Shown: positions 3 through 55,396 of the stretch, piece by piece | How the letters are laid out: each line of letters begins with the position of its first letter | Position numbering within the stretch: the first letter of the stretch is position 1 | Source of the DNA: an uncultured Candidatus Nitrosopumilus sp. | Lineage (GTDB): Archaea; Thermoproteota; Nitrososphaeria; Nitrososphaerales; Nitrosopumilaceae | Reading direction: 5' to 3' | Assembly (NCBI GenBank): GCA_951812655.1 | Contig: OX638319.1 | Span: 1,465,620-1,529,619 of the forward strand | Length of the DNA stretch: 64,000 bases | The notes under the pieces: generated by a model | What the model saw: the letters and a program-made list of their open reading frames with translations, nothing else | Told to the model about the DNA's origin: nothing | Database searches by the model: none | Made by a program: the position numbers and the translations under genes

Positions 3-77
3 GCATATGAGGAACTGGCAAGGAAACTGCGCCAAAGAATCTACCAGTCGCTGAACGTGGAGGAAGAATACGCATGA
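3..77 (+). CDS. 3' end of an unidentified casposon gene (partial)
   Basis: An open frame enters from the left edge and ends in TGA at 75-77, giving about 24 charged residues ending in EEEYA. Its stop overlaps the start of the DNA polymerase gene as ATGA, so the two are translationally coupled. The tail is too short to assign a family. Confidence 0.6.
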   Translation, partial: AYEELARKLRQRIYQSLNVEEEYA

Positions 78-2908
78 AACTGGGCAAAATGGGCGTGATC
101 AATGTACCTCAGGCAGAGTCAATCAGCCTCAGATGCTATACTGGAAACTACAGGCCTGTCTCACGCTATTCCCACAACGAAAATGCCAATAATGGAATGG
201 TGTTAACTTTCAGCACTGAGACCACTTCTGACCAGCAACAGACCCTGACCTTTGGCTCCTGTGCAGTCTGGATTAACGGCACATTGTATAAGATTTGTCT
301 TTTCCATGATGAGAATCGGGACTCCGAGAAAGTTGATATGATAAAAAAAGTTGGAGAAACACTGCAAAAAGAAAAGGACTGCATTGTAACCGTATCATCC
401 AAGGATGAGTTTGTGACAAGGGTCTTCTATCCGTATGTCTATGAGGCAAGGGCAAAGTATGTCGGCTTTGACTTGCCATACGAGTTGTCTAGACTTGCAT
501 CATCATGGGGAACTGCAAGAAAAATCCAAGATGCGTTTTCAATGAAACTAGTTGATGGCATTCCACGTCTTCCCGCAATCAGGATTAAGAGCATAAACGG
601 AAATGCGGCATTCATCCAGTTTGCAACTCCGCTAAGGACAAAAAGCGAGAAGAAGAAATTCCCAACCCGCAAGGTGTACAGAGGGTATTTCCTGGATTTG
701 AAAACAATAGGACATGCAATGAGCAACAAGTCCTTTGATGCAATGGATGGACTTGCAAGAACGTTTGATGTAGATGCAAACCTGAAAAGCAAGAAAGGGA
801 TTACGGAAGCTGCAATCAGAAGCAATGTGGACAAAACACTGACAATGTATAATATCTACTGCAGAATTATTTCCGTGTTACAGAATACGTTTTTGGTAAA
901 ACCAAACAATGCAAACAATCTGTACTCTCCAGCTTCAATTGGGAAACACTATCTAGAGAAGCTAAACATCAAGCCGCTCCTGGAGAAAAATCCAGATTTT
1001 TCAAAAGAAATTCTAGGAAACATGATGACTGCATTTTATGCAGGACGGGTCGAAACCAGAATCAGAAAAACACCCGTTCCAGTTACTTATCTGGATTGCA
1101 CCAGTACCTATCCTACAATGTTCTTGCTGATGGAAATGTATCCGTTTTTGACTGCAGAGAAAATTGAACATTCTGTCACTACACAACAGACGCAGAAATT
1201 CCTTGATGGGGTCACCCTGCAGGACGTTTCACAAAAGGAGACATGGAGGCAGCTGACCACAATCTGCAAGGTAGTTCCAGACGGCAACATGATTGTGCCT
1301 GTACGCTCCGGATACGGCTCCAAGAAAGCCCAAAACATAGGCGTAAACCCTCTCAAAAGCACCGATGGAACGAGCCTGTGGTATACCGTATCTGACCTGA
1401 TAGCCTCAAAGTTGCTTACGGGTCACACATCAATAATTGAAAAGGCAATTACATTCTCTCCTGCAGGAATACAGCAAAACATTCCTGATGAGGACGTGGA
1501 AATTTTCAAGGGAGTGACAGTCAATCCGAGAAAAGAGAATTTCATCAAGCAACTAATCGAGAAGCGGTTGGAGATGAAGCGACCCTCAGAAAATTCTGAA
1601 ATTGATAGCACAATACAGAACACGATAAAAATAATCGCAAACACCGCAGCATACGGCATACACATCCAGGTAAACTCTGAAAAATCTGAGAAGCAAAACG
1701 AACCAGTAAAGGTCTATGGAATTGATGAATCGTTTTCCATAGATCAAAACACAGTATCAAGAAAGGAGATTCCTGCAAGGCACTTCAATCCCATATTGGG
1801 AGTCTTCTTGCCTGCAGCTGCAAGGTTAGTTTTGGCAGCCGCCGAAAGTATCGTTACATCACACAGAGACGGATACGTTGCCTACATGGATACAGACAGC
1901 ATTATGGTTTCACCAAAACATGCAAGTGGGATTCAGAAGTTTTTCCAGAAACTCAATCCATATGAAAACAAGGACGTGCAGATTATGAAAGTTGAAAAAT
2001 CTGATGATGGAAAACTGTTGGAGAACGTATTGTTCTTCGGAATCTCATCCAAGAGATACGTTTTGTTTGAACATAACGAAATGAAAAACAAATTCAGCAT
2101 TCGCAAGTTCACGTCTCACGGTTTGGCCCATCTGTTGGACGTGGATGCAGAGAAATGGTGGGATGACATACGTGCAATGCATCATCATCCGGAAAGAAAG
2201 CAGGACATACTTGACAGGTATGATAACAAGTATGCAGTATCCAAAATGAGCATCACGACACCAAATGTGTTGAAGAAATTCGGTAACTTGAGACCGTTTG
2301 ACAAAATACTTGTCGGTACAGGATGCAAAAGCGATGGCAACGGCAATGCGATAATTCCGACCTTGCCGTACCTTGATGCAAGAAACAGAGAATGCATCCA
2401 GTACATGCCGTTTACAAATTATCCCACAGGTGAGAGATATTCAGGCTCTGTAGACACCATTCCCTACTGGAAGCCGTTAAGTGAAATGCTGGATGAATAT
2501 GCCAATCACAGGGAGGCAAAGTCAGGCGGAAACATTGGCTTGCTGCCTCGATTACGCATGAAAATAGGCAAGAATTTGATAAAATACGTGGGAAAGGAGG
2601 TGGCAAACCTTGATGCTGCCAACATCCTGGGAGTCACGGAAAATTCTGGCGGTCGTACTGTCTATGACAATCTTGAAGAAAGAATACTTGAGATTAGACC
2701 ACGAGATTCCCACAGATTTGGAATGTCAAGGAGCAACTTGATTGCAATCCAAAAGAAAATCAGAAGCAATGACTCTATAGTGAATCTCCAGAAAGGCACC
2801 ATCAAAAAACTACAAAAGGCATTTTCGGACGTTGTTTCGGAAAATTGCCGGAATGATGACCGGAAAGAAAGTGACACTGTGATTGAACGGGAGGTGATAA
2901 TGAAATAA
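74..2908 (+). CDS. polB: Family B DNA polymerase of casposon type (probably protein-primed)
   Basis: The 944-residue protein should replicate or repair the casposon DNA. Polymerase motif A is seen as YLDCTSTYPT with the metal Asp near residue 341, motif B as KIIANTAAYG (519-528), and motif C as YMDTDS (604-609). An exonuclease-like GFDLPYELSRL stretch lies near residue 131. Thaumarchaeal (family 1) casposons are known to carry protein-primed PolB, and that class fits best; I could not verify the TPR insertions that define it. The start overlaps the previous stop (ATGA). The stop overlaps the next start (TAATG). A decayed paralog of the last third lies at 54.1-55.0 kb. All three catalytic motifs are intact, so it may be active. 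Confidence 0.88.
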   Translation: MKLGKMGVINVPQAESISLRCYTGNYRPVSRYSHNENANNGMVLTFSTETTSDQQQTLTFGSCAVWINGTLYKICLFHDENRDSEKVDMIKKVGETLQKEKDCIVTVSSKDEFVTRVFYPYVYEARAKYVGFDLPYELSRLASSWGTARKIQDAFSMKLVDGIPRLPAIRIKSINGNAAFIQFATPLRTKSEKKKFPTRKVYRGYFLDLKTIGHAMSNKSFDAMDGLARTFDVDANLKSKKGITEAAIRSNVDKTLTMYNIYCRIISVLQNTFLVKPNNANNLYSPASIGKHYLEKLNIKPLLEKNPDFSKEILGNMMTAFYAGRVETRIRKTPVPVTYLDCTSTYPTMFLLMEMYPFLTAEKIEHSVTTQQTQKFLDGVTLQDVSQKETWRQLTTICKVVPDGNMIVPVRSGYGSKKAQNIGVNPLKSTDGTSLWYTVSDLIASKLLTGHTSIIEKAITFSPAGIQQNIPDEDVEIFKGVTVNPRKENFIKQLIEKRLEMKRPSENSEIDSTIQNTIKIIANTAAYGIHIQVNSEKSEKQNEPVKVYGIDESFSIDQNTVSRKEIPARHFNPILGVFLPAAARLVLAAAESIVTSHRDGYVAYMDTDSIMVSPKHASGIQKFFQKLNPYENKDVQIMKVEKSDDGKLLENVLFFGISSKRYVLFEHNEMKNKFSIRKFTSHGLAHLLDVDAEKWWDDIRAMHHHPERKQDILDRYDNKYAVSKMSITTPNVLKKFGNLRPFDKILVGTGCKSDGNGNAIIPTLPYLDARNRECIQYMPFTNYPTGERYSGSVDTIPYWKPLSEMLDEYANHREAKSGGNIGLLPRLRMKIGKNLIKYVGKEVANLDAANILGVTENSGGRTVYDNLEERILEIRPRDSHRFGMSRSNLIAIQKKIRSNDSIVNLQKGTIKKLQKAFSDVVSENCRNDDRKESDTVIEREVIMK

Positions 2909-3369
2909 TGGCCGGAATGATAGAGAACAGTACCGGAATGATAGAGAACAGTACCGGAATGATAGAGAACAGTATCGGAATGATAGAAAATTCCACCGGA
3001 TTGATAGAGGAGAATGCCGGAATGATGACCGAAACTAATGAGATAGAACGTACTGCAAGTGGAAGAAAAAAGCGTAGCAGGGAACGAGGAAAGGACAGCA
3101 AGCCTAGAAACTTCCCACTACATACAATCAAGAATCTGCCACAGTTCAGAGACAAGTCACATCAGGAAGTTAGAGAATACATACTTGCAAAGAAGGGAAT
3201 TGACATTGGAGGCAATTTTAATCTTGGAAGTATAATCATGCCAATCTTAATCGTGTCTGCAATAGTTGCAGGAGGATACGGATTATACTGGTTGATAAAA
3301 CAACTCCAGAAACGAAAAGAAACACAAAATGAGAATGTTGCAAATCCACACAACATGACTTGTGAATGA
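2908..3369 (+). CDS. Small casposon protein with 7-residue repeats and a C-terminal membrane segment
   Basis: The family is not recognised. The 153-residue protein starts with about six copies of a GMIENST-like heptad encoded by exact 21-bp steps (CCGG at 2912, 2933, 2954, 2996, 3017; TCGG at 2975). A strongly basic middle (RKKRSRERGKDSKPRNF) follows, then a conserved FPLHTxKNLPQFRDKSHQEVR stretch and one membrane helix near residues 108-130. Its start overlaps the polB stop (TAATG), with GGAGGTGAT about ten bases upstream as a ribosome site. A paralog at 54995-55396 is still open although its neighbours are broken. Position next to a protein-primed-type polymerase suggests a priming or membrane-anchoring partner, but this is only inference. 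Confidence 0.75.
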   Translation: MAGMIENSTGMIENSTGMIENSIGMIENSTGLIEENAGMMTETNEIERTASGRKKRSRERGKDSKPRNFPLHTIKNLPQFRDKSHQEVREYILAKKGIDIGGNFNLGSIIMPILIVSAIVAGGYGLYWLIKQLQKRKETQNENVANPHNMTCE

Positions 3370-15458: not shown

Positions 15459-16691
15459 TTATCGAATTTTCAAAAGAATTTTCTCACAAATTTTGGGATT
15501 TTTTCCTTCAGATAAATTCTTCTTGATATACCATAGAGTAGATTTGTTAATCCCTAGTTGTTTTCGTTCATCAAAAGTCATATTCAAAATCTTTTTTTGT
15601 AATTCCACATCATCATTCCTGTTCAATTGCATCTTTGGAATAACAAAACCAATTTCTTTTTTCTTATCTATAATAAAATTGGATAGTTGTTGTAAATTAT
15701 CCTGTAGAATAATTTGATATGAGTAATTCTTTCCATTTTTATAATTACATCTAGCATTAAAGTTTGAATTTATTTTCTCAATGAGTAATTTAGCAACATC
15801 TTCTCCCAATCTAGTATGATAATTCTCAGTGATGATAAAATCAGATTTTTTGATCATCTTTCCTTCCAATAATTGAATAACTGAAACATCAATGAGCCAT
15901 CTAAACAATTCTTGAATGTCATAGACTAATGGTGTTCTACTCTGATTAATCTCATGTAAAAATCCAATTGAATAATCCATTCCTACTGAGTTGATTGACT
16001 TTCTTATTTCTGATTCTAAAATAGCGTAACCGTAATTCAATAAGGCATTGATCTCATCAGACGCATTGTAATTTCTAGAGTTTGTCTTGTTCTTTCTCCC
16101 AGTAAAATTAAACTCTGGATACAACTCATTGAATATCGCAGTTAGATTCTCATGATAAATTCTAGCGATTCTTCCCTCATATGTCATCAATTGTTTTATT
16201 GATTTTGAAATGTCCTGTTTCTCACTGTTCTTCATGATGCCCAACAAAAACAAATCTTCTTTTTCTGCGGATTTTCTGATTTTGACAAAATCTATCGATT
16301 CATAAAATTTTGACAATCCTTCCAACAAGTTCAGGGAATGTTCTACCTTGGTCTGGACTATCTTCAGGGCAATCTCGAATCTATTATTGCAATCAAGGTA
16401 CTTTTGGTACTGCTTTACGCGTAATTTACCTGATTTTGGCTGCTCTGGCATCACATTTGCCAGTAATTGGCCGTTCCAGTTCAGTAATGTCAGATTGATG
16501 TTGTGCTTTGAGAGCCACCTCATTGCCTCAAACGTGATGTTGCCAGTATGCCCGTCAATGATAATTCCATCATGATTGATCTTGTGAGGATAAAATTCCA
16601 GTCTTGTATCTTTTAGTCTGTTTGTTATGATCAGCTTTCTCTTGTCCACGTTGATTGATGTTCCAAAGCCTGTGATAAGTAGAGGATTCAA
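15459..16691 (-). CDS. cas1: Casposase: Cas1 integrase with C-terminal HTH
   Basis: The 410-residue protein has the Cas1 N-terminal beta domain (IIIDGHTGNITFEAMRWLSKHNINLTLL). The catalytic helical domain has the family's acidic/His residues at E226 (YAILESEI), H246 (GFLHEIN), D258 and E261 (LVYDIQELFRWLID). The end is an extra HTH (ERKQLGINKSTLWYIKKNL), absent from CRISPR Cas1 and typical of casposases. No cas2 or CRISPR repeats are near. The start is TTG, 26 bases after a CATAAAAT box. The first ~130 codons have normal GC and the rest is very AT-rich, as if recombined. All catalytic residues are present, so it may be active. Confidence 0.88.
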   Translation of the reverse strand: MNPLLITGFGTSINVDKRKLIITNRLKDTRLEFYPHKINHDGIIIDGHTGNITFEAMRWLSKHNINLTLLNWNGQLLANVMPEQPKSGKLRVKQYQKYLDCNNRFEIALKIVQTKVEHSLNLLEGLSKFYESIDFVKIRKSAEKEDLFLLGIMKNSEKQDISKSIKQLMTYEGRIARIYHENLTAIFNELYPEFNFTGRKNKTNSRNYNASDEINALLNYGYAILESEIRKSINSVGMDYSIGFLHEINQSRTPLVYDIQELFRWLIDVSVIQLLEGKMIKKSDFIITENYHTRLGEDVAKLLIEKINSNFNARCNYKNGKNYSYQIILQDNLQQLSNFIIDKKKEIGFVIPKMQLNRNDDVELQKKILNMTFDERKQLGINKSTLWYIKKNLSEGKNPKICEKILLKIR

Positions 16692-17546: not shown

Positions 17547-18617
17547 TCAATCTGAGTGATGTCTGTCCTTTAATGCAAAGCTGGTCTTCCAAGGTCCCTG
17601 AATTATAGAAAACGAGGGAAACTTGTCTATTTTTGCATACTCGAATTTTGTTGCCCTCATCGGTTTTCGTCCAAATGATGCATTTCCAGGAGGAAAACGC
17701 TCCTGCATGAGAATCTCATGCAATGTAATGGTGAGACTTTTTACATCAGACCCAAATGGTCTTCCGTGAAATTCGTGCCTGTATTCAAATCCTTCAACAG
17801 AGTGTGTGCCTCCTCCACCATGACTGCTCAAATCATATGGGTTTCCAAGATCGTCTTCTAAGGTCACTATCACAGACACATGACCACTCCCCTTGTTCAT
17901 CCGATTAGAATCAAAGTCACTTTTTATGTAAAGATAGAACCGGAATCCCGTATCAAAGATCTCAATGGATGGAATCATCACATTTACGCTGTTTCGGTCC
18001 TCCTCGTATACTATGGGAATGACATCTTGCAGTTTTTCTAGAACGGGACCTCCAGATGATGAACGTAGCACACCAGGATTAGCAGATACAAACTCAAGAT
18101 GCGTATCCTTTGTGATCTGGCCATAATCAGCAGGCTCTACAGAAGTTATCAGGCATCCAAAATTATTTTGGGGATCAGTGTCATGGAACATAAACCTGTC
18201 ATCCTTTGAGACAACCAGTCCGTCTATTTTTTCTGTCCCAATTTTTGAAGTGTTAGGATTGGAATTTAGCAACATCATGCATACTCTGCTTGCAGGAACT
18301 GTCCCGTCATGAATCTTTTCTACAGTTATCGGAATTAGTCCTGCTCCGTGGCGGTTGATGTTTTGCAGAACAAGATTGCTTGCTCTGATTTGCGGCAGAA
18401 TTACAGGATTGTCATTAAGGTATGTGATTTCAGAGTCATTTGGAATTACGTAACCGTCATCAACTGAACGGCATATTGCACCTGTACTTTTCACTCCGGA
18501 GATTTTTACGGTATCTCCCTCACGTATTCCCATCTCCTGCATCCTGCTTTTTTCTATTCGGACCACGGATGTGTCATAATCATCCACGGGAAATGTAGAG
18601 AGTCTGAAACGGTTCAA
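17547..18617 (-). CDS. Cdc48/VAT N-domain protein with C-terminal beta-sandwich, no ATPase
   Basis: Residues 1-100 match the double-psi beta-barrel N domain of archaeal Cdc48/VAT (VVRIEKSRMQEMGIREGDTVKISG...IRASNLVLQNINRHGAGLIPITVEKI). The AAA+ modules are missing. The C-terminal ~130 residues (DDLGNPYDLSSHGGGGTHS... ending IIQGPWKTSFAL) form a beta-sandwich that is also found in 50008-51366. The N domain binds substrates or adaptors in VAT, so this may be a stand-alone recognition protein. Both family members in this window lie beside cas1 sequences. Confidence 0.6.
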   Translation of the reverse strand: MNRFRLSTFPVDDYDTSVVRIEKSRMQEMGIREGDTVKISGVKSTGAICRSVDDGYVIPNDSEITYLNDNPVILPQIRASNLVLQNINRHGAGLIPITVEKIHDGTVPASRVCMMLLNSNPNTSKIGTEKIDGLVVSKDDRFMFHDTDPQNNFGCLITSVEPADYGQITKDTHLEFVSANPGVLRSSSGGPVLEKLQDVIPIVYEEDRNSVNVMIPSIEIFDTGFRFYLYIKSDFDSNRMNKGSGHVSVIVTLEDDLGNPYDLSSHGGGGTHSVEGFEYRHEFHGRPFGSDVKSLTITLHEILMQERFPPGNASFGRKPMRATKFEYAKIDKFPSFSIIQGPWKTSFALKDRHHSD

Positions 18618-19899: not shown

Positions 19900-20460
19900 A
19901 TGCCGCAGACAAGACCCATAATCAGCATTGAAAACGTCGTGGCATCAGCTACAGTCAACCAGGAACTGGATCTTGTTGACATTCAGAAAAAATTTCCCAA
20001 AGTGGAGTACGACCGTGAGCAGTTTCCAGGCGCCTGCTTTAGACTTGAAAAACCAAAAACTGCCACCTTGCTGTTTCGGACGGGAAAGATGGTGTGCACC
20101 GGTTCAAAATCTGAAGAGATGGCAAGAAAGGCAGTGAAAATGGTAGTTGAGAGTCTCAGGGAGAAAAAAATCAAGATAAAAAATGATGCCCTTGTAACAG
20201 TACAGAACATCGTAGCATCCATCAATCTCGGAGGGACAATACATCTGGAAAAGGCAGCAAGGACCGTACCCAGAAGCATGTATGAGCCTGAGCAATTTCC
20301 GGGACTAATACACAGGATGGTGGATCCAAAGGTGGCGATACTTGTCTTTGCATCAGGCAAGCTGGTGTGCACCGGAGGCAAGACGGCACCGGATGTCCAT
20401 CGTGCCGTAAACTCACTGCATGTCTTACTGGAAGAAAAAGAACTGATGATTTATGACTAG
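19900..20460 (+). CDS. tbp: TATA-box-binding protein
   Basis: The 186 residues form the two-fold repeated TBP saddle: IISIENVVASATVNQELDL...EQFPGACFRLEKPKTATLLFRTGKMVCTG and VTVQNIVASINLGGTIHLE...EQFPGLIHRMVDPKVAILVFASGKLVCTGGK. It binds TATA boxes and recruits TFB and RNA polymerase. It lacks extra domains and looks complete. The array of 21-bp phased motifs starts 57 bases after its stop. Confidence 0.97.
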   Translation: MPQTRPIISIENVVASATVNQELDLVDIQKKFPKVEYDREQFPGACFRLEKPKTATLLFRTGKMVCTGSKSEEMARKAVKMVVESLREKKIKIKNDALVTVQNIVASINLGGTIHLEKAARTVPRSMYEPEQFPGLIHRMVDPKVAILVFASGKLVCTGGKTAPDVHRAVNSLHVLLEEKELMIYD

Positions 20461-20516: not shown

Positions 20517-20915
20517 TATCGATTCGGTAACTCTGATATCAATCGGTAGATGGATTTATCAATTCGGTATCTTTTCGGAGAATCACATTGTCAATTCGGA
20601 GAGAAATGTTATCAATTCGGCAGAATGGTTATCTTTCCGGTAACAGAATTTATCTTTCAGGTGTGATTTTCTGTTATTCCGACAGAATATTCCGAGATTA
20701 CCGGATTGATAACTATCTTTCCGGGGAACCAAAATGATTTTTCCGATACGATTCTACATTTTCCGGGTTGATATCTCCGAAACTCCCGAGACTTTGTCGA
20801 TACTTTCCGAGAGTTTTGATCGTCATTCTATCTTTCCGGCTATCAATTCGGGGATTTTGTCGAGACTTTGTCGATACTTTCCGAGAGTTTTCCGAAACTG
20901 CCGGAAAGATATCGA
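20517..20915 (+). repeat. Left array: ~21-bp phased TATCWWTYCGG motifs
   Basis: The 11-mer TATCWWTYCGG or a close variant starts at 20517, 20537, 20557, 20568, 20589, 20610, 20630, 20651, 20672 and 20714, with more degenerate units to about 20915. Spacing is 20-21 bp with one 11-bp step, that is, whole helical turns. The region is non-coding: the 20-bp steps and stops break any long frame. Together with the decamer block that follows it is a diverged inverted copy of 45601-46171. Protein-binding iterons are the best guess. Confidence 0.75.
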
Positions 20916-21005
20916 AACTATGGTCTGATCGCTACAACCCTAATTTGATGATTCATTGCAGGTTAAACACGTTCAGTCCATTCTCATTGGACGTTTTTGG
21001 GCATT

Positions 21006-21133
21006 GTCCAGTTTTGTACATAGATAGATTCCAATATAGTCCAAAGATGTCCAATATAGTCCAAAGATGTCCAGTTTTGTCCAATAATGTCAAAATTTGT
21101 CCAAGAACATCCAAAACTGTCAAGAAATGTCAA
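21006..21133 (+). repeat. Left array: 10-bp phased GTCCA motifs
   Basis: The pentamer GTCCA or a one-base variant occurs at 21029, 21039, 21049, 21059, 21069, 21079, 21089, 21099, 21109, 21119 and 21129, exactly every 10 bases. Two more out-of-phase units lie at 21006 and 21016. One unit per helical turn puts all copies on one face of the DNA. The array ends at the stop codon of the zinc-ribbon gene 21130-21339. A matching inverted block is at 45601. Confidence 0.8.
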
Positions 21134-21339
21134 ACTTGGGAATTTTCACGATGCCTCTGCTTGGACTGATTGCCCTTGGGCTTGTTTCTCAGCATATGCC
21201 CACAACAGGGACACCATAGTCCTTCCCACTTTATGTAGATGTCACATGTGGTGCATCTCTTTGCCCCCTGTCTGTACCAAGAATCAGCCCTCTTTCCCTT
21301 TGTCACTGTGTACCTGTGGCAGATTCCGTTGCATGTCAT
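21130..21339 (-). CDS. Small zinc-ribbon protein (thaumarchaeal family)
   Basis: The 69 residues have the full family pattern: CNGICHRY...RQGAKRCTTCDIYIKWEGLWCPCCGHMLRNKPKG. The KRC..C...GLWCPCCG part is a complete four-Cys zinc site. It is the intact counterpart of 6408-6623. The role is unknown. The 3' end touches the 10-bp array, and the gene is divergent to the exported protein at 21395. Confidence 0.75.
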   Translation of the reverse strand: MTCNGICHRYTVTKGKRADSWYRQGAKRCTTCDIYIKWEGLWCPCCGHMLRNKPKGNQSKQRHRENSQV

Positions 21340-21357
21340 CTTTGTGCTACAACAAGG

Positions 21358-21375
21358 TAGAATTCTTTATGAATC
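21358..21375 (+). promoter_or_regulatory. GAAYT-TTATGAA promoter 1
   Basis: TAGAATTCTTTATGAATC places a TATA-like TTTATGAA 26 bases before the ATG at 21395, giving a leaderless mRNA. The same GAAYT-N2-3-TTATGAA layout precedes five other exported-protein starts between 22.5 and 46.3 kb. Confidence 0.6.
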
Positions 21376-21394
21376 TGCAAATAAAAGACAACGC

Positions 21395-22489
21395 ATGAGA
21401 ATGGGAACTGTCGTGGCTTTGTTGTTTTCATCCGTATTGATTCCTGTGATTGTTGATGAGGCCTATGCAAAATGCATGGTTGGCGATGAATGCTATGGAT
21501 CTCCACTAGTCCCTCCGTTGAAATTCCAATTTCAATATTTTGCACTGCCCGATATCATATGCCCCAATCAAGATCACGTTTTAACTGAGAGACCAAATGG
21601 AAAACTCGCATGCGTTACAAGCAGTATGGCAGAAAAGACCGGGTGGCACATACATTACATGAATGTAGTTGATGCCAAAGGTCAGGTCCATATTGTGTCT
21701 CCCGGAATAATTTCTTGGATTCCTTTTGAGATAACCGGAGCCACACTTGATAAGATGGTATACGAAAATCAGATGCTGGTCGTATCAGTTACGCCAAACG
21801 ATGAACATGGGGTACTGTCAGTTGAATTACCCTTAGGTTCAGTTCCAGCAAATTTTGAGTACTGTGGTACTGACAACGAGAACCCGTTTGACACGCCATT
21901 TGTTATGATCATTGACGGACAAAAATACCCTCTAGTTGAAGGCATAAACTCACGGGGTCAGCCTGCTGTAAACATTCCTCTTGATGAAAATTCAGAGACC
22001 GTTGAGATAGTCAGGACTTGCAATGACCCATCCAAAAAATCTTCAATTGATTCTGATTCCAAAAAAATGGAAGACGTGCAAGACCTAGAAAATATGAGAA
22101 AAAGCATACTGGAACTTGAATTTAATGATAACATCATAACGGTACTCATCAGCGATGAGACATATTTTGGAGCAATGACCTCTTTTGAATTTACAACCAT
22201 TTCTGTTTCTAATTTGGTGCATGCCCATGACATGTTGCCTGAGACAAGCATGAACGACCGCATAATAGCAGGATCCATACTGTCTGAGATAGTCAAGGCA
22301 GGAACCTACATCACGCAAAATGGGGATAAGGAATTCTGGTATGCTATAGGTGGAATTGAATCTCAGGTAATTACAATTGAGCTGCGAGACCATGAGTTTG
22401 ACAGGATTGTATTTGTCTCTGAGAACAGCAAGGAATGGATTAAACAGATCAATGATATTGTAAGTTCTACAGAACAAGTTCACAATTGA
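21395..22489 (+). CDS. Secreted protein with Cys module and a C-terminal domain shared with 42229-43782
   Basis: The ATG is chosen from the promoter spacing. A signal peptide ends at EAYA, followed by CMVGDECYG and the module IICPNQDHVLTERPNGKLACVT, which recurs in six other exported proteins here. The middle part (WIPFEITGATLDKMVYENQMLVVSV) resembles a beta-sandwich. The last ~130 residues (DVQDLENMRKSILELEFNDNIITVLISDE...) are almost identical to the C-terminus of 42229-43782 on the opposite strand, so the domain was recently duplicated. Function unknown; secreted or surface-bound. Confidence 0.7.
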   Translation: MRMGTVVALLFSSVLIPVIVDEAYAKCMVGDECYGSPLVPPLKFQFQYFALPDIICPNQDHVLTERPNGKLACVTSSMAEKTGWHIHYMNVVDAKGQVHIVSPGIISWIPFEITGATLDKMVYENQMLVVSVTPNDEHGVLSVELPLGSVPANFEYCGTDNENPFDTPFVMIIDGQKYPLVEGINSRGQPAVNIPLDENSETVEIVRTCNDPSKKSSIDSDSKKMEDVQDLENMRKSILELEFNDNIITVLISDETYFGAMTSFEFTTISVSNLVHAHDMLPETSMNDRIIAGSILSEIVKAGTYITQNGDKEFWYAIGGIESQVITIELRDHEFDRIVFVSENSKEWIKQINDIVSSTEQVHN

Positions 22490-43860: not shown

Positions 43861-45507
43861 TCATCCCGTGATGGCCCCTCTCTGTTGGGCCTCTTCTTTT
43901 GATATTGGCAAATTTTGCACGTTTGAAAGATTTGTCTCAAGCAAATCTGCATTATTGAGGTTTGCACCCTGTAGGTCCGCACCAGACAGGTTGGCCCCTC
44001 GAAGATTGGCATTTTCCAGGTTTGCATTTTGCATGTTGGTATTTTGCAGACTCGCATTATGCAGATCCGCATATTTTAGGTTTGCAAACTGCATGTTGGC
44101 ATCATCAAAATTCAGTTTTTTTAAGTTTGTCTCAGCCATCATTGCACCCTGTAGGTCCGCACCCTGAAAGTTTGTCCCAGTCATACTTGCAATTTGAAAA
44201 TTCACTCCTCTCAAATCCGCATTTTGGAGGTCTGCATTATCCAGGTTTGAATCATTAATGTGTGTGTTCTTCATATTTGCACCTGTCAGGTCCGCACCAT
44301 GAAGATTTATGCCATAAAGATACGCATCACGGATGTCTGCATTACTCAAGTTTGCACCCTGAAGATTTGTGTACTGAATATTTCTATAATCAAGAACAAT
44401 TCCCTGAAGATTTGCATCTTTGAGGTTTGCATACTCGATATGAACACGTTCTAGGTTGATTTCACGTAAATCCATTCCCTGAATGTCTGCGCCTTCAAGG
44501 GACACTTGAACGTGACTCAGATCCAGGGTTTCTTTTAGATTGTTAAACTCAGACACTTGTCCACCTTCAAGCAACTCGACGAGTTTTTCGTTATCGTTAT
44601 CGCTGTCTGATTTTGCCAATGTGTCGCTCTCATTTTTAGTCCACCCTCGCTCAATCAGCTTCATTTTGGTTTCAGGAGTTACACATGCTATGCGTTTGTC
44701 ATCTGAGATCTCCTGCTCAAGCAACCTGTATCCTGTCTTGCATTCTATCTGTGAAGCACTCACTCCCATCTGGTATTGTATTGATGGCGGGAATTGCTCA
44801 GTTACAATTCCTATCTTTCCAACTTTGGTTTGCGGGACTTTTGTCAGGAGCGTTCCGTCATCATCCACTGAAAACTCCCAGCTTACAGATATCGCACACC
44901 TGTCCTTGTTTATCCCATTTGGCCTGTCGGACTGGAACAAGACCGCATGAAAGTCATAGGTACCGGGACCCAGTCTTTCAGAAGGCATCACCACAGATTT
45001 GCTGTCCCCTGGCAGATATTTTTCATGGTTGTCAACATCGCCTATTGTGGAATTCTGACTGTCTGATTCAAAAACAAATGCAAGATGCGGATAGTCCTTT
45101 ATGTATAATCCACCGGTTATTGAATGACCTGGATGCTTTTTCACATCCACGACATATGCCGGGATTCCATTGCTTTTGGGAAGTGCAGATTCCAAGTAAC
45201 TGTATGAATCTGAATCAGATTCGCCCAAAATTATAAAGAAATTGTCTTCAGTATCATCTATGTTCAGGAGTTGATCTTGATTGGCATCTATGATGCCCGT
45301 TTTGACTTGAGGTTGTATGCTTTCACAGAAAAGAGAACTGTCATCTTCAATAAATTCTAAAATTCCAAAATAATATGAGAATACGTTTGATTGGATGTCC
45401 TCGTTTTCAGATTCTCCAAACGTGGTACCATGACCTGGCTGAATCAATGGACTTGTCAGCATGCCAAAAACAAGAACGGACATCAGGCCAATTCCAAGCA
45501 GAGTCAT
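43861..45507 (-). CDS. Secreted pentapeptide-repeat protein with Cys module
   Basis: A hydrophobic N-terminus (residues 1-25) is followed by an alpha/beta outer domain and the module QIECKTGYRLLEQEISDDKRIACVTPETKMKLIERGW. From about residue 325 to the end run ~40 pentapeptide units of the A(D/N)LxG type (GANLSNADIRDAYLYGINLHG...). They form a right-handed quadrilateral beta-helix of about ten coils. Such a long helix is a rigid rod, probably a surface spacer or ligand. The nucleotide repeats make this gene prone to recombination. Confidence 0.85.
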   Translation of the reverse strand: MTLLGIGLMSVLVFGMLTSPLIQPGHGTTFGESENEDIQSNVFSYYFGILEFIEDDSSLFCESIQPQVKTGIIDANQDQLLNIDDTEDNFFIILGESDSDSYSYLESALPKSNGIPAYVVDVKKHPGHSITGGLYIKDYPHLAFVFESDSQNSTIGDVDNHEKYLPGDSKSVVMPSERLGPGTYDFHAVLFQSDRPNGINKDRCAISVSWEFSVDDDGTLLTKVPQTKVGKIGIVTEQFPPSIQYQMGVSASQIECKTGYRLLEQEISDDKRIACVTPETKMKLIERGWTKNESDTLAKSDSDNDNEKLVELLEGGQVSEFNNLKETLDLSHVQVSLEGADIQGMDLREINLERVHIEYANLKDANLQGIVLDYRNIQYTNLQGANLSNADIRDAYLYGINLHGADLTGANMKNTHINDSNLDNADLQNADLRGVNFQIASMTGTNFQGADLQGAMMAETNLKKLNFDDANMQFANLKYADLHNASLQNTNMQNANLENANLRGANLSGADLQGANLNNADLLETNLSNVQNLPISKEEAQQRGAITG

Positions 45508-45530
45508 TCATCAAGCATGATTTTGCTTCC

Positions 45531-45545
45531 TCATAAGTAGTTCGA
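45531..45545 (-). promoter_or_regulatory. GAAYT-TTATGAA promoter 5
   Basis: On the minus strand TCGAACTACTTATGA lies 28 bases before the ATG at 45507. The 10-bp phased array begins about 55 bases upstream of it. Confidence 0.55.
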
Positions 45546-45600
45546 AGAAATCATCAGCAGTCAGCCATCATTGTATCATTTTGATTTTTTAAAACAGGTT

Positions 45601-45674
45601 TGGACAATGTCTGACATTGTTGGACAAAACTGGACATCCTTGGACTTTATTGCACATTTGTATTTGGACAATGT
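45601..45674 (-). repeat. Right array: 10-bp phased TGGAC motifs
   Basis: TGGAC or a one-base variant starts at 45601, 45611, 45621, 45631, 45641 and 45651, exactly every 10 bases, with one out-of-phase unit at 45665. It is the complement of the GTCCA decamer at 21006-21133. The surrounding bases also align, so this is a diverged inverted copy. Confidence 0.75.
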
Positions 45675-45730
45675 CCAAAAATGTCTAATAAAGACGGATT
45701 GAACGTCAGATGTAATCGATAAACTGTCGA

Positions 45731-46171
45731 AATAGAATTACTGCGATCGGATTATTTTTTGACATCTTTCCGACAGTTTCGACAAACTCTCGGTAAATAT
45801 GGAAAAGTTTCGGTAAAATCATCGAATTGATAGCCGGAAAGATAGAACTGCGATCAAAAGTTTCGGAAAATATCGACAAATTCTCGGAAGTTTCGGAATT
45901 ATCAATCCGGAAAAATCCATTTTGGTCTCCTGAAAAATAGTTATCAATTCGGTTGTGCGGAATATTTCACCGGAAAGATGGAAAGTCACACCGGAAAGAT
46001 AGATTCTGTTACCGGAAAGATAGATTCTGTTACCGGAAAGATAGAACTTCTCATCGAATTGATAAAATGTTTCTCCGAAAAGATACCTGATTGATAAACT
46101 TCGAAACTAGATTAGCTCCGAATTGATAATCCGTTACACTGAATTAATAATTTTGTCATCCAAATTGATAC
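45731..46171 (-). repeat. Right array: 21-bp phased CCGRAWWGATA motifs
   Basis: Motif starts at 45970, 45991, 46012, 46033, 46054, 46075, 46086, 46118, 46139 and 46160: steps of 21 bp with one of 11 bp and one of 32 bp. More degenerate units reach back to about 45731. The 11-bp step falls at the same place as in the left array. Part reads as a heptad peptide (TGKIDSV) but is broken by stops. The block lies between divergent promoters for 45507 and 46259. Confidence 0.78.
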
Positions 46172-46218
46172 CGAAAAGAAACTCAAAATACCAAAATACA
46201 TTTCAAAAACCACATGAA

Positions 46219-46236
46219 TAGAACTACTTATGAACA
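46219..46236 (+). promoter_or_regulatory. GAAYT-TTATGAA promoter 6 (serpin)
   Basis: TAGAACTACTTATGAACA puts TTATGAA about 28 bases before the serpin ATG at 46259. It is the best match to the consensus and lies 48 bases from the 21-bp array. Confidence 0.6.
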
Positions 46237-46258
46237 CTATTTTGCGGTTAGATGAATA

Positions 46259-48052
46259 ATGAACAAGATGTTTTTCATAATGATACTTTTTGGAGTTGTC
46301 CTGGTCCCTGCCAACCTTGCTTATGCTTCAATTAATCCAAACTCTCTTCTAGATGAAGAAGAGATACCTTTGCCAGACCAAACCAAGGAACTATTATCTA
46401 CATGTCCTGATGTCTGGAAGGATTTCTTTACCAGATCACCCGAGAAAAAACAATTCATGGATGATGTTACAAAGGGCCTAATTTCAAATACACCGGAGTT
46501 TCAATCGCTGAGCGGGAGCATACAGTCCATTACTGCACACTATATACATAACTTGGATTCGCCCTGTCCTCCAGAGGCATACGCTTACGGAACTTTCAGA
46601 TCAGAAAACAACAATGACATACACAGATTCGTATTGGAGTTTAACAGCGTTTATTTTCGATACATGGTTAATGACATGCTGCCGCAGTATGCATCATCAT
46701 CATCTGTTCAGGATGAAAAGCAAAACGAATCTCCAGTACTTTCACCGCTAAAACAGATTCTTTCTGGAATATCTCCTCAAGACATTGTATGTAGTGAAGG
46801 ATTACACCTAGTACTTACTTTATCTGAAAAACCTGCATGTGTAAAAGAACAATCCATTTCAAAATTAATCGCCAGAGGTTGGATAGACGATTCAAAAAAA
46901 CTGAGTCCAGATATAGAAAAAATTCCCACTGATCCTGTTCTTGCCAAGAAAATAACCGACGCAACCAACCAATTTGCACTTGACTTTTACAAGCATGAGT
47001 CAGAGAACGAAAATGAAAACATATTCTTCTCATCACCCAGCATCTCTACTGCATTCTCAATACTGTATGAGGGTGCAAGAGGCGAGACCGCAGACGAGAT
47101 GCAAAAAGTGTTTGGATTTCCAAAAGATGATGATGAGAGACGAGTTGGATTTTTCTCATTTGGCGACACGATAGGCCAGAAAAATGATGATGAAAATACC
47201 ATGCAGATGGCAAATGCGTTATGGCTTGCAGACGGGTTTGCACCATTGCCTGAATATGTTGACACGGCCAAAACGTACTATTCCAGCTCAGTTGATTCTG
47301 TGAATTTTGCAAACGACCAGGGACGACTTGAAATAAATGATTGGGCAAAATCAAAGACACAGGACAGAATCAAGGAACTGCTCAAACCTGGCTCTACTGA
47401 TGCTAGTACCAAAATGGTAATCACAAATGCCATCTACTTTAACGGGGCATGGGAGCATCCGTTTGATTCTGAGGATACCTATGAGGCAGACTTTGCAGTA
47501 GATTCAGACAAGACGGTAAAAGTTTCCATGATGTCATATCCTCACAAGATGAAATTCAACCACACATCAACTGAACAGATGCAGATGCTCCAGATTCCCT
47601 ACAAGGCAAATGCTCTTTCCATGCTGATAATATTGCCTCACAATACAGATGACATGCAGTCTGTCGAGAAATCACTCACAGTGGAGAACCTAAAACTCTG
47701 GAAAAGTCAGTTCTATAACTACGGAACCGTAATTCACATGCCAAAATTTACGCTTGAAACAGAGTACAACCTAAAAGAATCCCTGACAGAAATGGGAATG
47801 CCATCCGTGTTCGGTCCGGCTGACCTAAGCGGCATAACAGGCAGCAAGGGACTGTTTGTATCTGAAGCAGTGCACAAGGCATTTGTAGATGTAAACGAAA
47901 AGGGAACAGAATCTGCAGCTGCAACTGCAATCAACCTTGACGAGTCAAGCGGGCGGGCATTCAAGGCAGACCGTCCTTTCATCTTCATCATACAGGATAA
48001 CGAGACAGAAAGCATTCTGTTTATGGGTAGGGTGATGGATCCAACTGCATAG
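46259..48052 (+). CDS. Secreted serpin with N-terminal extension
   Basis: Signal peptide (ends NLAYAS), a ~150-residue helical domain, the Cys module (DIVCSEGLHLVLTLSEKPACVKEQSISKLIARGW), then a complete serpin of about 365 residues. Serpin marks: NIFFSSPSISTAFSILYEGARGET, VITNAIYFNGAWEHPFD, MLQIPYKANALSMLIILP. The hinge VNEKGTESAAATAIN and FKADRPFIFII are also present. The hinge is of inhibitory type (small residues P15-P8). Counting from the hinge puts P1 near Glu/Ser in DESSGR, so a Glu- or Ser/Gly-directed target rather than trypsin. It should trap proteases outside the cell. Co-transcribed with 48064. Confidence 0.92.
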   Translation: MNKMFFIMILFGVVLVPANLAYASINPNSLLDEEEIPLPDQTKELLSTCPDVWKDFFTRSPEKKQFMDDVTKGLISNTPEFQSLSGSIQSITAHYIHNLDSPCPPEAYAYGTFRSENNNDIHRFVLEFNSVYFRYMVNDMLPQYASSSSVQDEKQNESPVLSPLKQILSGISPQDIVCSEGLHLVLTLSEKPACVKEQSISKLIARGWIDDSKKLSPDIEKIPTDPVLAKKITDATNQFALDFYKHESENENENIFFSSPSISTAFSILYEGARGETADEMQKVFGFPKDDDERRVGFFSFGDTIGQKNDDENTMQMANALWLADGFAPLPEYVDTAKTYYSSSVDSVNFANDQGRLEINDWAKSKTQDRIKELLKPGSTDASTKMVITNAIYFNGAWEHPFDSEDTYEADFAVDSDKTVKVSMMSYPHKMKFNHTSTEQMQMLQIPYKANALSMLIILPHNTDDMQSVEKSLTVENLKLWKSQFYNYGTVIHMPKFTLETEYNLKESLTEMGMPSVFGPADLSGITGSKGLFVSEAVHKAFVDVNEKGTESAAATAINLDESSGRAFKADRPFIFIIQDNETESILFMGRVMDPTA

Positions 48053-50007: not shown

Positions 50008-51366
50008 ATGAATAGTAATTCTGATGCTGCCGTATCGCATCTGATGTTCAGGTCCTATTCTGTAGATGAGGAAGACCAGTGCAAGTCAATCGTAAGGATT
50101 GGAAGAAAACACATGCAGCAGTTAGAAATCAAGGAAGGTGAAATCGTAAGACTTGAGGGCAACACAAAAAGCACTGCTGCCACATGTCTTGCACTTGATG
50201 AGACCAAGAACTATGTGACAATCAAAAATACAAGAATCTATGACGTTGAGATAGAATACAAAGACAAAGGTGGCACATCATCACCAGAAACACCTGACCC
50301 CTATCCAAAAATCAGAATAAGCAGGTTGGTAGACTCGCACTTAGGTTCAAGGGGAGGTCAAACAGGCCTAGTAAGAGTGAGCAAGTTTGAGGACAATGCA
50401 GATGGGTCATTTGAAAATGATAAAGAAGATCATGCTGCAACTGTCATAACACTTGGAACTCTTGACATGTTTGAGAAGATGATGCCCGGATACAAAGACC
50501 AGGTAGACTGGGATGATGCAAGAGAACTATTAATTCAAAAAGATGACAAAATCAGCATTTCCTTCAAGGAAGACTCTTTTGCAGAGCAGAGAAAGGCAGA
50601 GAAACAGCAGCAAGAACAGTTCAGACAGCAGCGAAAACAAAGCAGAGAAACAGGAGGCAAACTCTCTTCACGCCCACCTGTTCCTTTGCCACGATGTTTT
50701 TCCTCGATTGTCCTAGATGTAAAGCCTGAAGGGAAACCCTTTTGGAAAATTGGAAAGAATACAAAGTTTGAGTTTCAGGATGCGGATCCTGACGTGCTGG
50801 AGTCAGGATTCAAGCTAAAACCGAGAAACCTGACAAGAGTAATTCCGATTGCAAAGCAGGTAAACGTGGATGGAATCAACATTGCAGTGGCGTCACTTGA
50901 GATTTATGAAAACATCATGAAGATGATATTTTACTCTGAGCAGCGAGTCAAGATATCTGATTTTACCAACGTGGAGAAGGTAAACAGTATAACAAGCAAT
51001 CTCGGCGAACCAAAATTTGTAATTGCGCTAAGAGACGATCTGGGAAATTCATATCATACCGAATTTGAAAACGGCGGTACCCGACATACTGGGCCAGACC
51101 TTTCCACAAAAGAGGCAGTCTCAGAGCAGGAATGGCATCAGTTCTTGCTGCCCTTGCTTGATCCAAAAGCAAAGGATCTGACAATCAGCATAAGGGAGAT
51201 TCAATGGTTCAAACGCAACCAAGAAGGAATTGACGAATCTCATTTGAACATGCATTCTTCTGCATCATCATCACCATCCAAAACAAACATGCCGCAAGAA
51301 CATCATTCTCCAGGAAAACTTGTTATCATTGAGGGCCCGTGGGAATTCAAAATACTTCTTTTGTAA
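50008..51366 (+). CDS. Cdc48/VAT N-domain protein with C-terminal beta-sandwich, second copy
   Basis: Paralog of 17547-18617. The N-terminus matches the VAT N domain (SIVRIGRKHMQQLEIKEGEIVRLEGNTKSTAATC). A Gln/Arg-rich helical insert spans about 190-220 (EKQQQEQFRQQRKQSRE). The end repeats the shared sandwich (DDLGNSYHTEFENGGTRHT... IIEGPWEFKILLL). There is no AAA+ ATPase. Its 3' end directly precedes a cas1 5'-end remnant, as 17547-18617 precedes the intact cas1 one gene later. It may be a cargo or target-flanking gene of the casposons. Confidence 0.55.
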   Translation: MNSNSDAAVSHLMFRSYSVDEEDQCKSIVRIGRKHMQQLEIKEGEIVRLEGNTKSTAATCLALDETKNYVTIKNTRIYDVEIEYKDKGGTSSPETPDPYPKIRISRLVDSHLGSRGGQTGLVRVSKFEDNADGSFENDKEDHAATVITLGTLDMFEKMMPGYKDQVDWDDARELLIQKDDKISISFKEDSFAEQRKAEKQQQEQFRQQRKQSRETGGKLSSRPPVPLPRCFSSIVLDVKPEGKPFWKIGKNTKFEFQDADPDVLESGFKLKPRNLTRVIPIAKQVNVDGINIAVASLEIYENIMKMIFYSEQRVKISDFTNVEKVNSITSNLGEPKFVIALRDDLGNSYHTEFENGGTRHTGPDLSTKEAVSEQEWHQFLLPLLDPKAKDLTISIREIQWFKRNQEGIDESHLNMHSSASSSPSKTNMPQEHHSPGKLVIIEGPWEFKILLL

Positions 51367-54000: not shown

Positions 54001-54994
54001 TTGAATCCTCTGATCATCACAGGTTTTGGAACATCAATCAACGTAGACAAACGAAAACTGATCATTACAAACAGACTAAAAGATACAAGACTGGAATTTT
54101 ATCCCCACAAGATTAATCATGATGGAATAGAAGACAAATTCAACATTCACAAGTTCACATCTCATGGTTTGGCCCATCTATTGGACGTTGATAAAGAGAA
54201 ATGGTGGAATGACATACTTGCAATGGAATATTTTCCTGAAACAAAACAAGAGATACTTGACAAGTATGAAAACAAGATGCAGTATCCAAGATGAGCATCA
54301 CAACGCCAAATGTGTTGAAAAGATTTTCCAATCTAAGACCATTCAACAAAATATTGATTGGTACAGGATACAAGACAGATGACAATGGCAATGTGATAAT
54401 TCCAACTTTGCCATACCTTGATGGAACACAGAGGGAATGTATCCAGTACATGCCATTTACAAATTATATCACTGGAGAGAAATTCCCAGATTCCGTAGAT
54501 ACTGTTCTCTAGTGGAAGCCATTGAATGAAACGTTGGATGACTATGCCAACTACTGGAAGCCATTGAATGAAACGTTGGATGACTATGCCAACCACAAGG
54601 AGACAAAGTCAGGTGGAAATATTGGCTTGTTATCCAGATTACGCATGAAAATAGACAGGAATCAGATAAAATATGTCGGAAAGGAGGTGGCAAATCTTGA
54701 TGCCTCTAACATCCTAGGAGTTAGTGAAGATTCTGAGGGTTGTATTGTATATGACAATCTAGAGGAGAAAATACTAGACATTAGACCGAGAGATTCCTAC
54801 AAGCTTGGAATATCTAGGAGTAACTTGATTGCAATCCAAAAGAAAATCAGGAGCAAGGACTCTCAAGTAAAACTTCAGAAAGGAACCATCAAAATGCTAC
54901 AAAAGGCATTTTCTGACACTGTTTCGGGAAATTTCCGGAATGATGACCGGAAAGATAACGACACCATGATTGAACGGGAGGCGATAATGAAATA
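54001..54994 (+). pseudogene. Fused and broken cas1-polB remnant
   Basis: Cas1 part: NPLIITGFGTSINVDKRKLI... to KINHDGI. It is followed directly by the polymerase part DKFNIHKFTSHGLAHLLDVD. Damage: a frameshift near 54285 (the frame ends NKMQYPR), an in-frame TAG where casposon A has TAC (54509-54514 region), and a 42-bp tandem duplication that doubles WKPLNETLDDYAN. The rest follows casposon A's PolB to its last residues (EREAIMK). Confidence 0.85.
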
Positions 54995-55396
54995 ATGACC
55001 GGAATGATAGAAGAGAATACCGGAATGATAGAAGAGAATACCGGAATGATAGAAGAGAATACCGGAATGATAACCGAAACTAATGACAGAGAATACACTG
55101 CAAGTGGAAGAAGAAAACGCAGTAAAGAAAGGGGCAAGGACAGCAAGCCAAGAAACTTCCCACTACATACATTGAAGAACTTGCCACAGTTCAGAGACAA
55201 ATCCCATCAGGAAGTTAGAAAATACATACTTGAAAAGAAGGGAGTTGATATTGAAAGCAATTTCAACTGGAATAAGATAATAGTGTGGATGCTTATGGGA
55301 CTTGCAATTGTTGCAGGTGGAATCGGAATTTGGAAATTATGGAAACAATGGAGTTCTGATGAGAATGCCCGAATCTCAGAAAATCTACAGCCGTGA
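54995..55396 (+). CDS. Small casposon repeat/membrane protein, copy in remnant D
   Basis: 133 residues, fully open: three GMIEENT heptads (21-bp steps), GMITETN, a basic RRKRSKERGKDSKPRNF stretch and the same FPLHTLKNLPQFRDKSHQEVRKYIL core as 2908-3369. One membrane helix (about 91-113) with a different sequence follows. Its start again overlaps the polB stop (TAATG). It has kept its frame while polB and cas1 next to it collected stops, which hints at selection or at recent decay. Confidence 0.7.
   Translation: MTGMIEENTGMIEENTGMIEENTGMITETNDREYTASGRRKRSKERGKDSKPRNFPLHTLKNLPQFRDKSHQEVRKYILEKKGVDIESNFNWNKIIVWMLMGLAIVAGGIGIWKLWKQWSSDENARISENLQP

Follow-up and report, generated by a model that had tools for sequence, protein, structure and literature searches.

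Some marine ammonia-oxidising archaea carry arrays of a short DNA site that belong to casposon-type mobile elements. The sites share one helical phase, are constrained as DNA even where they lie within genes and are linked to a small casposon gene, geneB; in their longer form the arrays sit between divergent promoters and join flanking genes that have been reassorted. The explanation we put forward, in which we place about as much trust as doubt, is that of an operator- or iteron-like binding array that was spread by casposons and came to act as a two-way regulatory region and as a recombination junction. The array would be cis-acting DNA composed of many 11-bp sites together with a related 11-bp site, spaced by one helical turn or multiples of it, and a sequence-specific protein, as yet unidentified, would bind to one face of the helix in a cooperative manner. 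The array would belong to a casposon lineage encoding Cas1 with a helix-turn-helix (HTH) domain, an HNH-like protein, a divergent PolB and geneB, where it immediately follows geneB; in a sister lineage it is embedded in the coding sequence of polB/geneB. The long form would have increased in number as an upstream region that regulates both of two divergently transcribed neighbours, and would be the joint where gene modules from the left and the right are swapped. The binding protein, its cooperative binding and the control of both promoters are inferred; that the protein is not known speaks against the proposal. An earlier description of such arrays was not found in the literature searched. 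Casposons are considered to be related to the machinery of CRISPR adaptation and, to our knowledge, little is known about their cis-acting DNA beyond the terminal repeats. If the proposal is true, it provides a defined set of DNA sites and a candidate partner gene with which casposon maintenance and influence on host genes can be tested, as well as a clear example of how an array of regulatory DNA can be retained within protein-coding sequence.

In the window, i.e., the entire stretch of 64,000 nucleotides analysed here, the motif CCGRAWWGATA (TATCWWTYCGG on the opposite strand) has 48 matches with at most one mismatch, compared with 7.0 ± 2.7 in shuffled sequences (maximum 14). The complete 1.67-Mb genome contains 53 exact copies, almost all within a few clusters, and three of the reversed pattern. 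An earlier note on this DNA had placed the motif at four loci. All four exist, and the clusters extend slightly further than described there:

2848..3027, + strand: coding array of 8 sites with steps of 12, 52 and five times 21 bp
20517..20911, − strand: non-coding array of 13 CCGRAWWGATA sites (10 on the − strand, 3 on the + strand) with steps of 40, 11, 21, 21, 20, 21 bp and on
20921..20935, + strand: conserved TGATCG end of the preceding array
45822..46181, + strand: non-coding array of 14 sites, inverted relative to 20517..20911, with 21-bp steps at 45970-46075
54935..55072, + strand: coding array of 6 sites with steps of 12, 52 and three times 21 bp

The first and last of these clusters are located at two-gene junctions. 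The two non-coding arrays, which contain sites in both orientations and are mutually inverted, are related copies (77% over 367 bp). Between the sites of array 20517..20911 there is another repeat of 11 bp, TTTYCGARAYT. Outside the window, the genome holds a third related array (genome positions 1421285-1421745) and a small array remnant (1295589-1295631).

Spacing was assessed in 19 non-coding arrays of the present genome and of genomes related to it, for successive sites of the same orientation up to 75 bp apart, yielding 135 values. They fall at 11, 12, 20-22, 31-33, 40-43, 52-55 or 62-63 bp, i.e., at multiples of 10.5 bp, with a phase concentration of R=0.94 at this period, and of 0.92 if spacings of 20-22 bp are excluded. 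The claims of a step of about 21 bp and of a preserved helical phase are thus both borne out: 21 bp is the most common spacing (54 of 135), and 11, 32, 42-43 and 53 bp are present as well. Because the half-steps of 11, 32 and 53 bp occur, the array is not merely a tandemly copied 21-bp unit. Note that the p-values for phasing are too small, since the arrays are related to one another. The number of sites and their spacing vary widely among arrays; the phase does not. The site profile, TATC[AT][AT]T[CT]CGG, carries about 1-2 bits per column, while flanking positions mostly remain below 0.5, and a site amounts to about 17 bits over 11 bp. Several copies of the same specific short site in fixed helical register are what is expected of an operator or centromere iteron array. 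Could the 10.5-bp periodic CG and AT steps instead hold a histone or another architectural nucleoid protein rather than a sequence-specific regulator? The entire region, including both types of site, is indeed periodic at 10-11 bp. However, the information content of the site is far above that of a dinucleotide periodicity and the distribution is limited to genomes with geneB, and we consider this possibility very improbable.

The coding arrays lie within the following genes:

74..2908, + strand: polB (gene A), family-B DNA polymerase with YxDTDS motif, 944 aa
2908..3369, + strand: geneB2, small basic membrane protein with six heptads (AGMIENS, TGMIENS...) derived from motif copies 2912-3027
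54118..54995, + strand: remnant of polB, fused to the start of cas1 (54001-54129)
54995..55396, + strand: second geneB2 copy with four heptads

The 3' codons of polB contain two motif copies (2848 and 2860), which write the C-terminal stretch ...NCRNDDRKESD... in a single frame. geneB2 overlaps the end of polB, and its heptads use another frame of the motif. The last motif copy in polB and the first in geneB are 52 bp apart, which corresponds to five helical turns. Among 41 heptads from nine geneB2 genes, the isoleucine codon of the motif is always ATA (37/37, background 0.32), the glycine codon always GGA (38/38, background 0.48), and the third base of the threonine or alanine codon is C in 30 of 34 cases (background 0.15-0.18), with a variable first base. 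The third base is random in spacer codons 1 and 2 (0.02 bits), and the last spacer codon mostly ends in T. Tandem copying makes these counts less independent; that the spacer wobble bases are random shows, however, that the heptad units have had time to diverge. A protein-coding tandem repeat should conserve amino acids and leave synonymous sites free, which is not what is seen, and from the codon pattern it appears that DNA rather than protein is preserved in the casposon coding arrays. Descent of the arrays from a decayed protein-coding heptad repeat, suggested by the fact that the TGMIENS heptads of geneB2 use the same DNA, is ruled out by this codon test, in which the wobble bases of the motif are constant and the first bases of its codons are variable. 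Non-coding arrays moreover possess both orientations and no frame, casposons of the lineage sister to that in the window carry arrays without any heptads, and we give this origin virtually no credence.

These observations also bear on what the earlier note had proposed. Its suggestion of a function at the DNA level is supported by the phasing, the use of two frames per operon, the fixed motif wobble bases and the recurrence at comparable loci in other genomes, for which it had called. The motif is, as it had stated, kept in the large arrays where the reading frame is not. By the note's own terms, a function at the DNA level would have been refuted by decayed copies of a protein repeat with synonymous-type changes, and the reverse pattern was found. 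The note had left undecided whether the sequence was DNA first and protein later or the other way round. The former order is favoured and the latter is not, because the non-coding form is more common and is found in casposons as well as outside of them, and because loci L135 and L160 join an array to geneB heptads. If this is true, a 21-bp step, equalling two helical turns and seven codons, allows one sequence to serve both DNA and protein roles. Structure prediction for PolB gave an unusable model (pLDDT 30), that for the geneB product was of low confidence without a structural match, and no recognised DNA-binding domain was present in the latter. The region 54001-54995 of the window represents a cas1 start fused to the last third of polB, with a 42-bp tandem duplication at 54509-54593 within the polB remnant.

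The host element was identified by its genes. The integrase is encoded here:

15459..16691, − strand: Cas1, best solved relative 6opm

It matches the Pfam Cas1 family (6e-59), and its closest solved structure is 6opm (E=1e-69). Homologues of gene A match DNA_pol_B (5.9e-6) and DNA_pol_B_2 (5.9e-10) and possess the YxDTDS motif, as expected for PolB. In other Nitrosopumilus genomes, cas1 is divergently oriented and followed by genes for a small basic protein, an HNH-like protein, polB and geneB; cas1 and polB are divergent and 2-3 kb apart in L077, L078 and L070. No terminal repeats (TIR) or target duplications (TSD) were found by the arrays in L070, L077, L078 and the copies in the window's own genome, where left ends may exceed the DNA covered; assignment to casposons therefore rests on gene content. 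Cas1 (15459-16691) and PolB (74-2908), as well as their counterparts in L101 and L103, carry homologous C-terminal HTH domains (hhalign P about 1e-11), and this likeness suggests that integrase and polymerase may recognise the same DNA. Proteins recurring beside cas1 and arrays have CDC48_N-like starts (window 17547-18617 and 50008-51366; L075 9298-10368).

Arrays are present in 10 of 60 Nitrosopumilus genomes, and a profile search detected geneB in exactly these ten (chance p=1.3e-11, with the reservation that array and gene are often physically linked). Cas1 homologues occur in 20 of the 60 genomes and polB of the array clade in seven. A second polB clade (about 33% identical) belongs to casposons that share Cas1 (57-84%) yet lack geneB and arrays; arrays of similar type were not found beside clade-2 polB. 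A role of the array as a Cas1 site was rejected, as the number of genomes with Cas1 is double that with arrays and some casposons have Cas1 but no array. Arrays occur in three contexts: directly 3' of polB-geneB (L070, L077, L078, L079 and L084), within polB/geneB, and between divergent genes. One casposon lineage has a geneB without heptads, then a terminator-like hairpin and then a non-coding array, with about 60-110 bp separating the array from a host gene (e.g., HSP20 or TFB), whose 3' end faces it. The sister lineage, to which the elements in the window belong, has the array inside polB and geneB and none after them. In the copies directly 3' of polB-geneB, the orientation of the array relative to cas1 is constant wherever cas1 is nearby.

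This arrangement invites the interpretation as a casposon maintenance site, made of replication, partition or transposition iterons bound by an element protein (the geneB product, the basic protein F20, or the HTH tails of Cas1 and PolB), the copies near secreted-protein genes being remnants of casposon ends. The position directly behind polB-geneB in constant orientation, the perfect co-occurrence with geneB, the absence of both from clade-2 casposons with a similar Cas1 and the HTH domain common to Cas1 and PolB are all in its favour. However, the array is found on one side only with no adjoining TIR or TSD, in the sister lineage it lies within genes and not at an end, and most copies in the metagenome-assembled genome (MAG) OFTM383 have no casposon gene nearby but do have divergent promoters. 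Furthermore, genome G053 retains four long arrays despite broken geneB copies and the absence of polB. The iterons that the earlier note had in mind remain possible, as the arrays do belong to casposons, but most non-coding copies lie upstream of genes for secreted proteins, and this speaks no less for transcriptional control. We consider the maintenance site rather unlikely. For the binding array proposed here, geneB remains the best-linked candidate partner, and no more than a candidate, given the lack of a recognisable DNA-binding domain and its broken copies in G053, which keeps arrays.

The long form is a conserved region of 350-460 bp between divergent genes, most of which encode secreted proteins. 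It comprises both non-coding arrays of the window and is also found in G053 and, in about twenty copies, in MAG OFTM383. Alignment of 22 long-form loci gave a 262-bp consensus with eight sites at fixed positions in both orientations, the second repeat TTTYCGARAYT and the TGATCG end. In the window, the two long arrays have these surroundings:

19900..20460, + strand: additional TBP gene, its end 56 bp away from the array
21005..21114, + strand: TGTCCAA iteron block with a 10-bp period, separating the array from the following gene
21239..22489, + strand: ORF of 416 aa, start toward the array across the TGTCCAA block
43861..45507, − strand: secreted pentapeptide-repeat protein, start toward the array
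45527..45544, − strand: core promoter (CTTATGA) of the divergent pentapeptide-repeat gene
45600..45690, − strand: TGTCCAA repeats on the other side of array 45822..46181
46220..46237, + strand: core promoter AGAACTACTTATGAACAC of the serpin gene
46259..48052, + strand: secreted serpin, start toward the array

The true start of the 416-aa ORF is probably downstream of a promoter-like site at 21359-21376. At nearly every longer-form locus, at least one gene starts toward the array, typically at a distance of about 80 bp on the left and 170-390 bp on the right. An N-terminal hydrophobic segment is predicted for 29 of 32 array-facing genes versus 108 of 279 in the background (p=9e-9). These genes encode serpins, pentapeptide proteins, many unknown secreted proteins and several TBPs; no domain common to the secreted neighbours was found, and only 4 of 39 gave a match. 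The same core promoter, about RGAANTMYTTATGAACTT, is present on both sides of the array, some 30 bp before the start codon, the left one being 47-89 bp away from the array. The long form thus adjoins promoters, as an operator or centromere array should. Casposon copies facing the 3' ends of host genes such as HSP20 and TFB have no promoter there and do not meet this expectation, which tells against our explanation. The distance between array and promoter is not helically phased (R=0.14), so that simple contact with the basal machinery is unsupported. Genome G013, which is devoid of arrays, has the same core promoter and leader before genes for secreted proteins. The core promoter was therefore rejected as a signal specific to arrays. 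It is a pre-existing type of promoter to which the array has been added, and expression as such does not require the array.

Several minor features accompany these loci. In G013 (L161-L165), a duplicated module of promoter, leader and signal peptide (AGAACACTTTATGAACAT ... ATGAAATATTTTGT) precedes many different genes for secreted proteins. TGTCCAA repeats follow the TGATCG end in most long arrays (e.g., L031, L071, L117 and L142); with their 10-bp period they represent a separate iteron type on the side of the second promoter. TBP genes number five in G000 and G053 and three in most relatives. The two extra ones lie beside or among arrays (window 19900-20460, genome 1455658-1456173), and TBP genes also adjoin arrays in L114, L139, L141, L142 and L158.

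When the flanks were sorted by DNA similarity, each left-neighbour family seen more than once had a different right neighbour every time, and vice versa. Shared flanks are up to 99% identical, no left-right pair was found twice, and identity declines from the shared flank across the array toward the unshared one. Long arrays in L135 and L160 continue directly into geneB2 heptads. Taken together, these findings identify the arrays as joints of rearrangement, brought about by general homology or a specific enzyme. Would this suffice to explain their persistence? The array could be a mobile, recombinogenic spacer, kept because homologous exchange reshuffles cargo genes, with binding secondary or absent. 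The ever-changing right partners of left families with at least two members, the identity gradients crossing within the array and its fusion to geneB2 heptads agree with this idea. Homology alone, however, does not explain fixed wobble bases, strict 10.5-bp steps and inverted sites at fixed positions, and an array-specific recombinase was not identified. We regard a mere spacer as improbable.

Known systems offer partial parallels for the proposed binding array. In pSM19035, one small protein, omega, is both repressor and centromere-binding protein at parS (PMC9499535). As in that system, short non-palindromic sites form runs of direct and inverted copies at several loci per replicon and overlap promoter regions (PMC9499535). 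The parS sites, however, are contiguous 7-bp heptads, whereas the sites described here have 11 bp and steps of 10-11 bp, and our arrays are located on the chromosome, are linked to casposons and to genes for secreted proteins, and occur within coding DNA too. The centromere iterons parC and tubC of type II and III partition systems, likewise tandem direct repeats, are bound cooperatively, also repress their promoter and flank it on both sides in one plasmid (PMC5016525). Unlike there, neither a cytomotive NTPase nor a ParR/TubR gene was identified beside the arrays. By analogy, the array may work like the operator-centromere arrays pSM19035 parS and R1 parC, but a protein that binds it has not been demonstrated; because no cognate protein or NTPase was identified, it cannot be assigned to either family. 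Thaumarchaeal casposons of family 1 resemble the present elements in encoding Cas1 and PolB, in small genes upstream of polB and in insertion near the 3' ends of host genes (PMC4046053, PMC6563490). Family-1 Cas1 (NitAR1) is reported to have no C-terminal HTH, in contrast to the Cas1 described here (PMC6614799). An array or a geneB-like partner is not mentioned in those parts of the family-1 accounts that were consulted (PMC4046053, PMC6563490). CRISPR arrays share with ours the presence of repeats in a cas1-bearing region. A CRISPR-like array was nevertheless rejected: The sites have 11 bp, variable gaps of 0-10 bp and both orientations, and there are no identical repeats of 25-40 bp and no unique spacers.

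A more far-reaching version, which we offer only tentatively and judge unlikely, holds that in some Nitrosopumilus a casposon-born operator- or centromere-like array has turned into a hub acting across the genome: Pairs of divergent secreted-protein genes would be controlled through it by a single element-linked protein and would be reassorted at it, and in one casposon lineage its DNA would be maintained within a pair of overlapping genes, in two reading frames.

Outside the genus, no exact paired site was found in viral contigs and no match to the array in phage records. The matches at L131, L143 and L147 were rejected, as they are coding repeats of different sequence. Contig L129 (JAJDDX010000210.1), filed under a Phycisphaerae MAG, carries a Nitrosopumilus casposon polB and geneB2 and is probably mis-binned.
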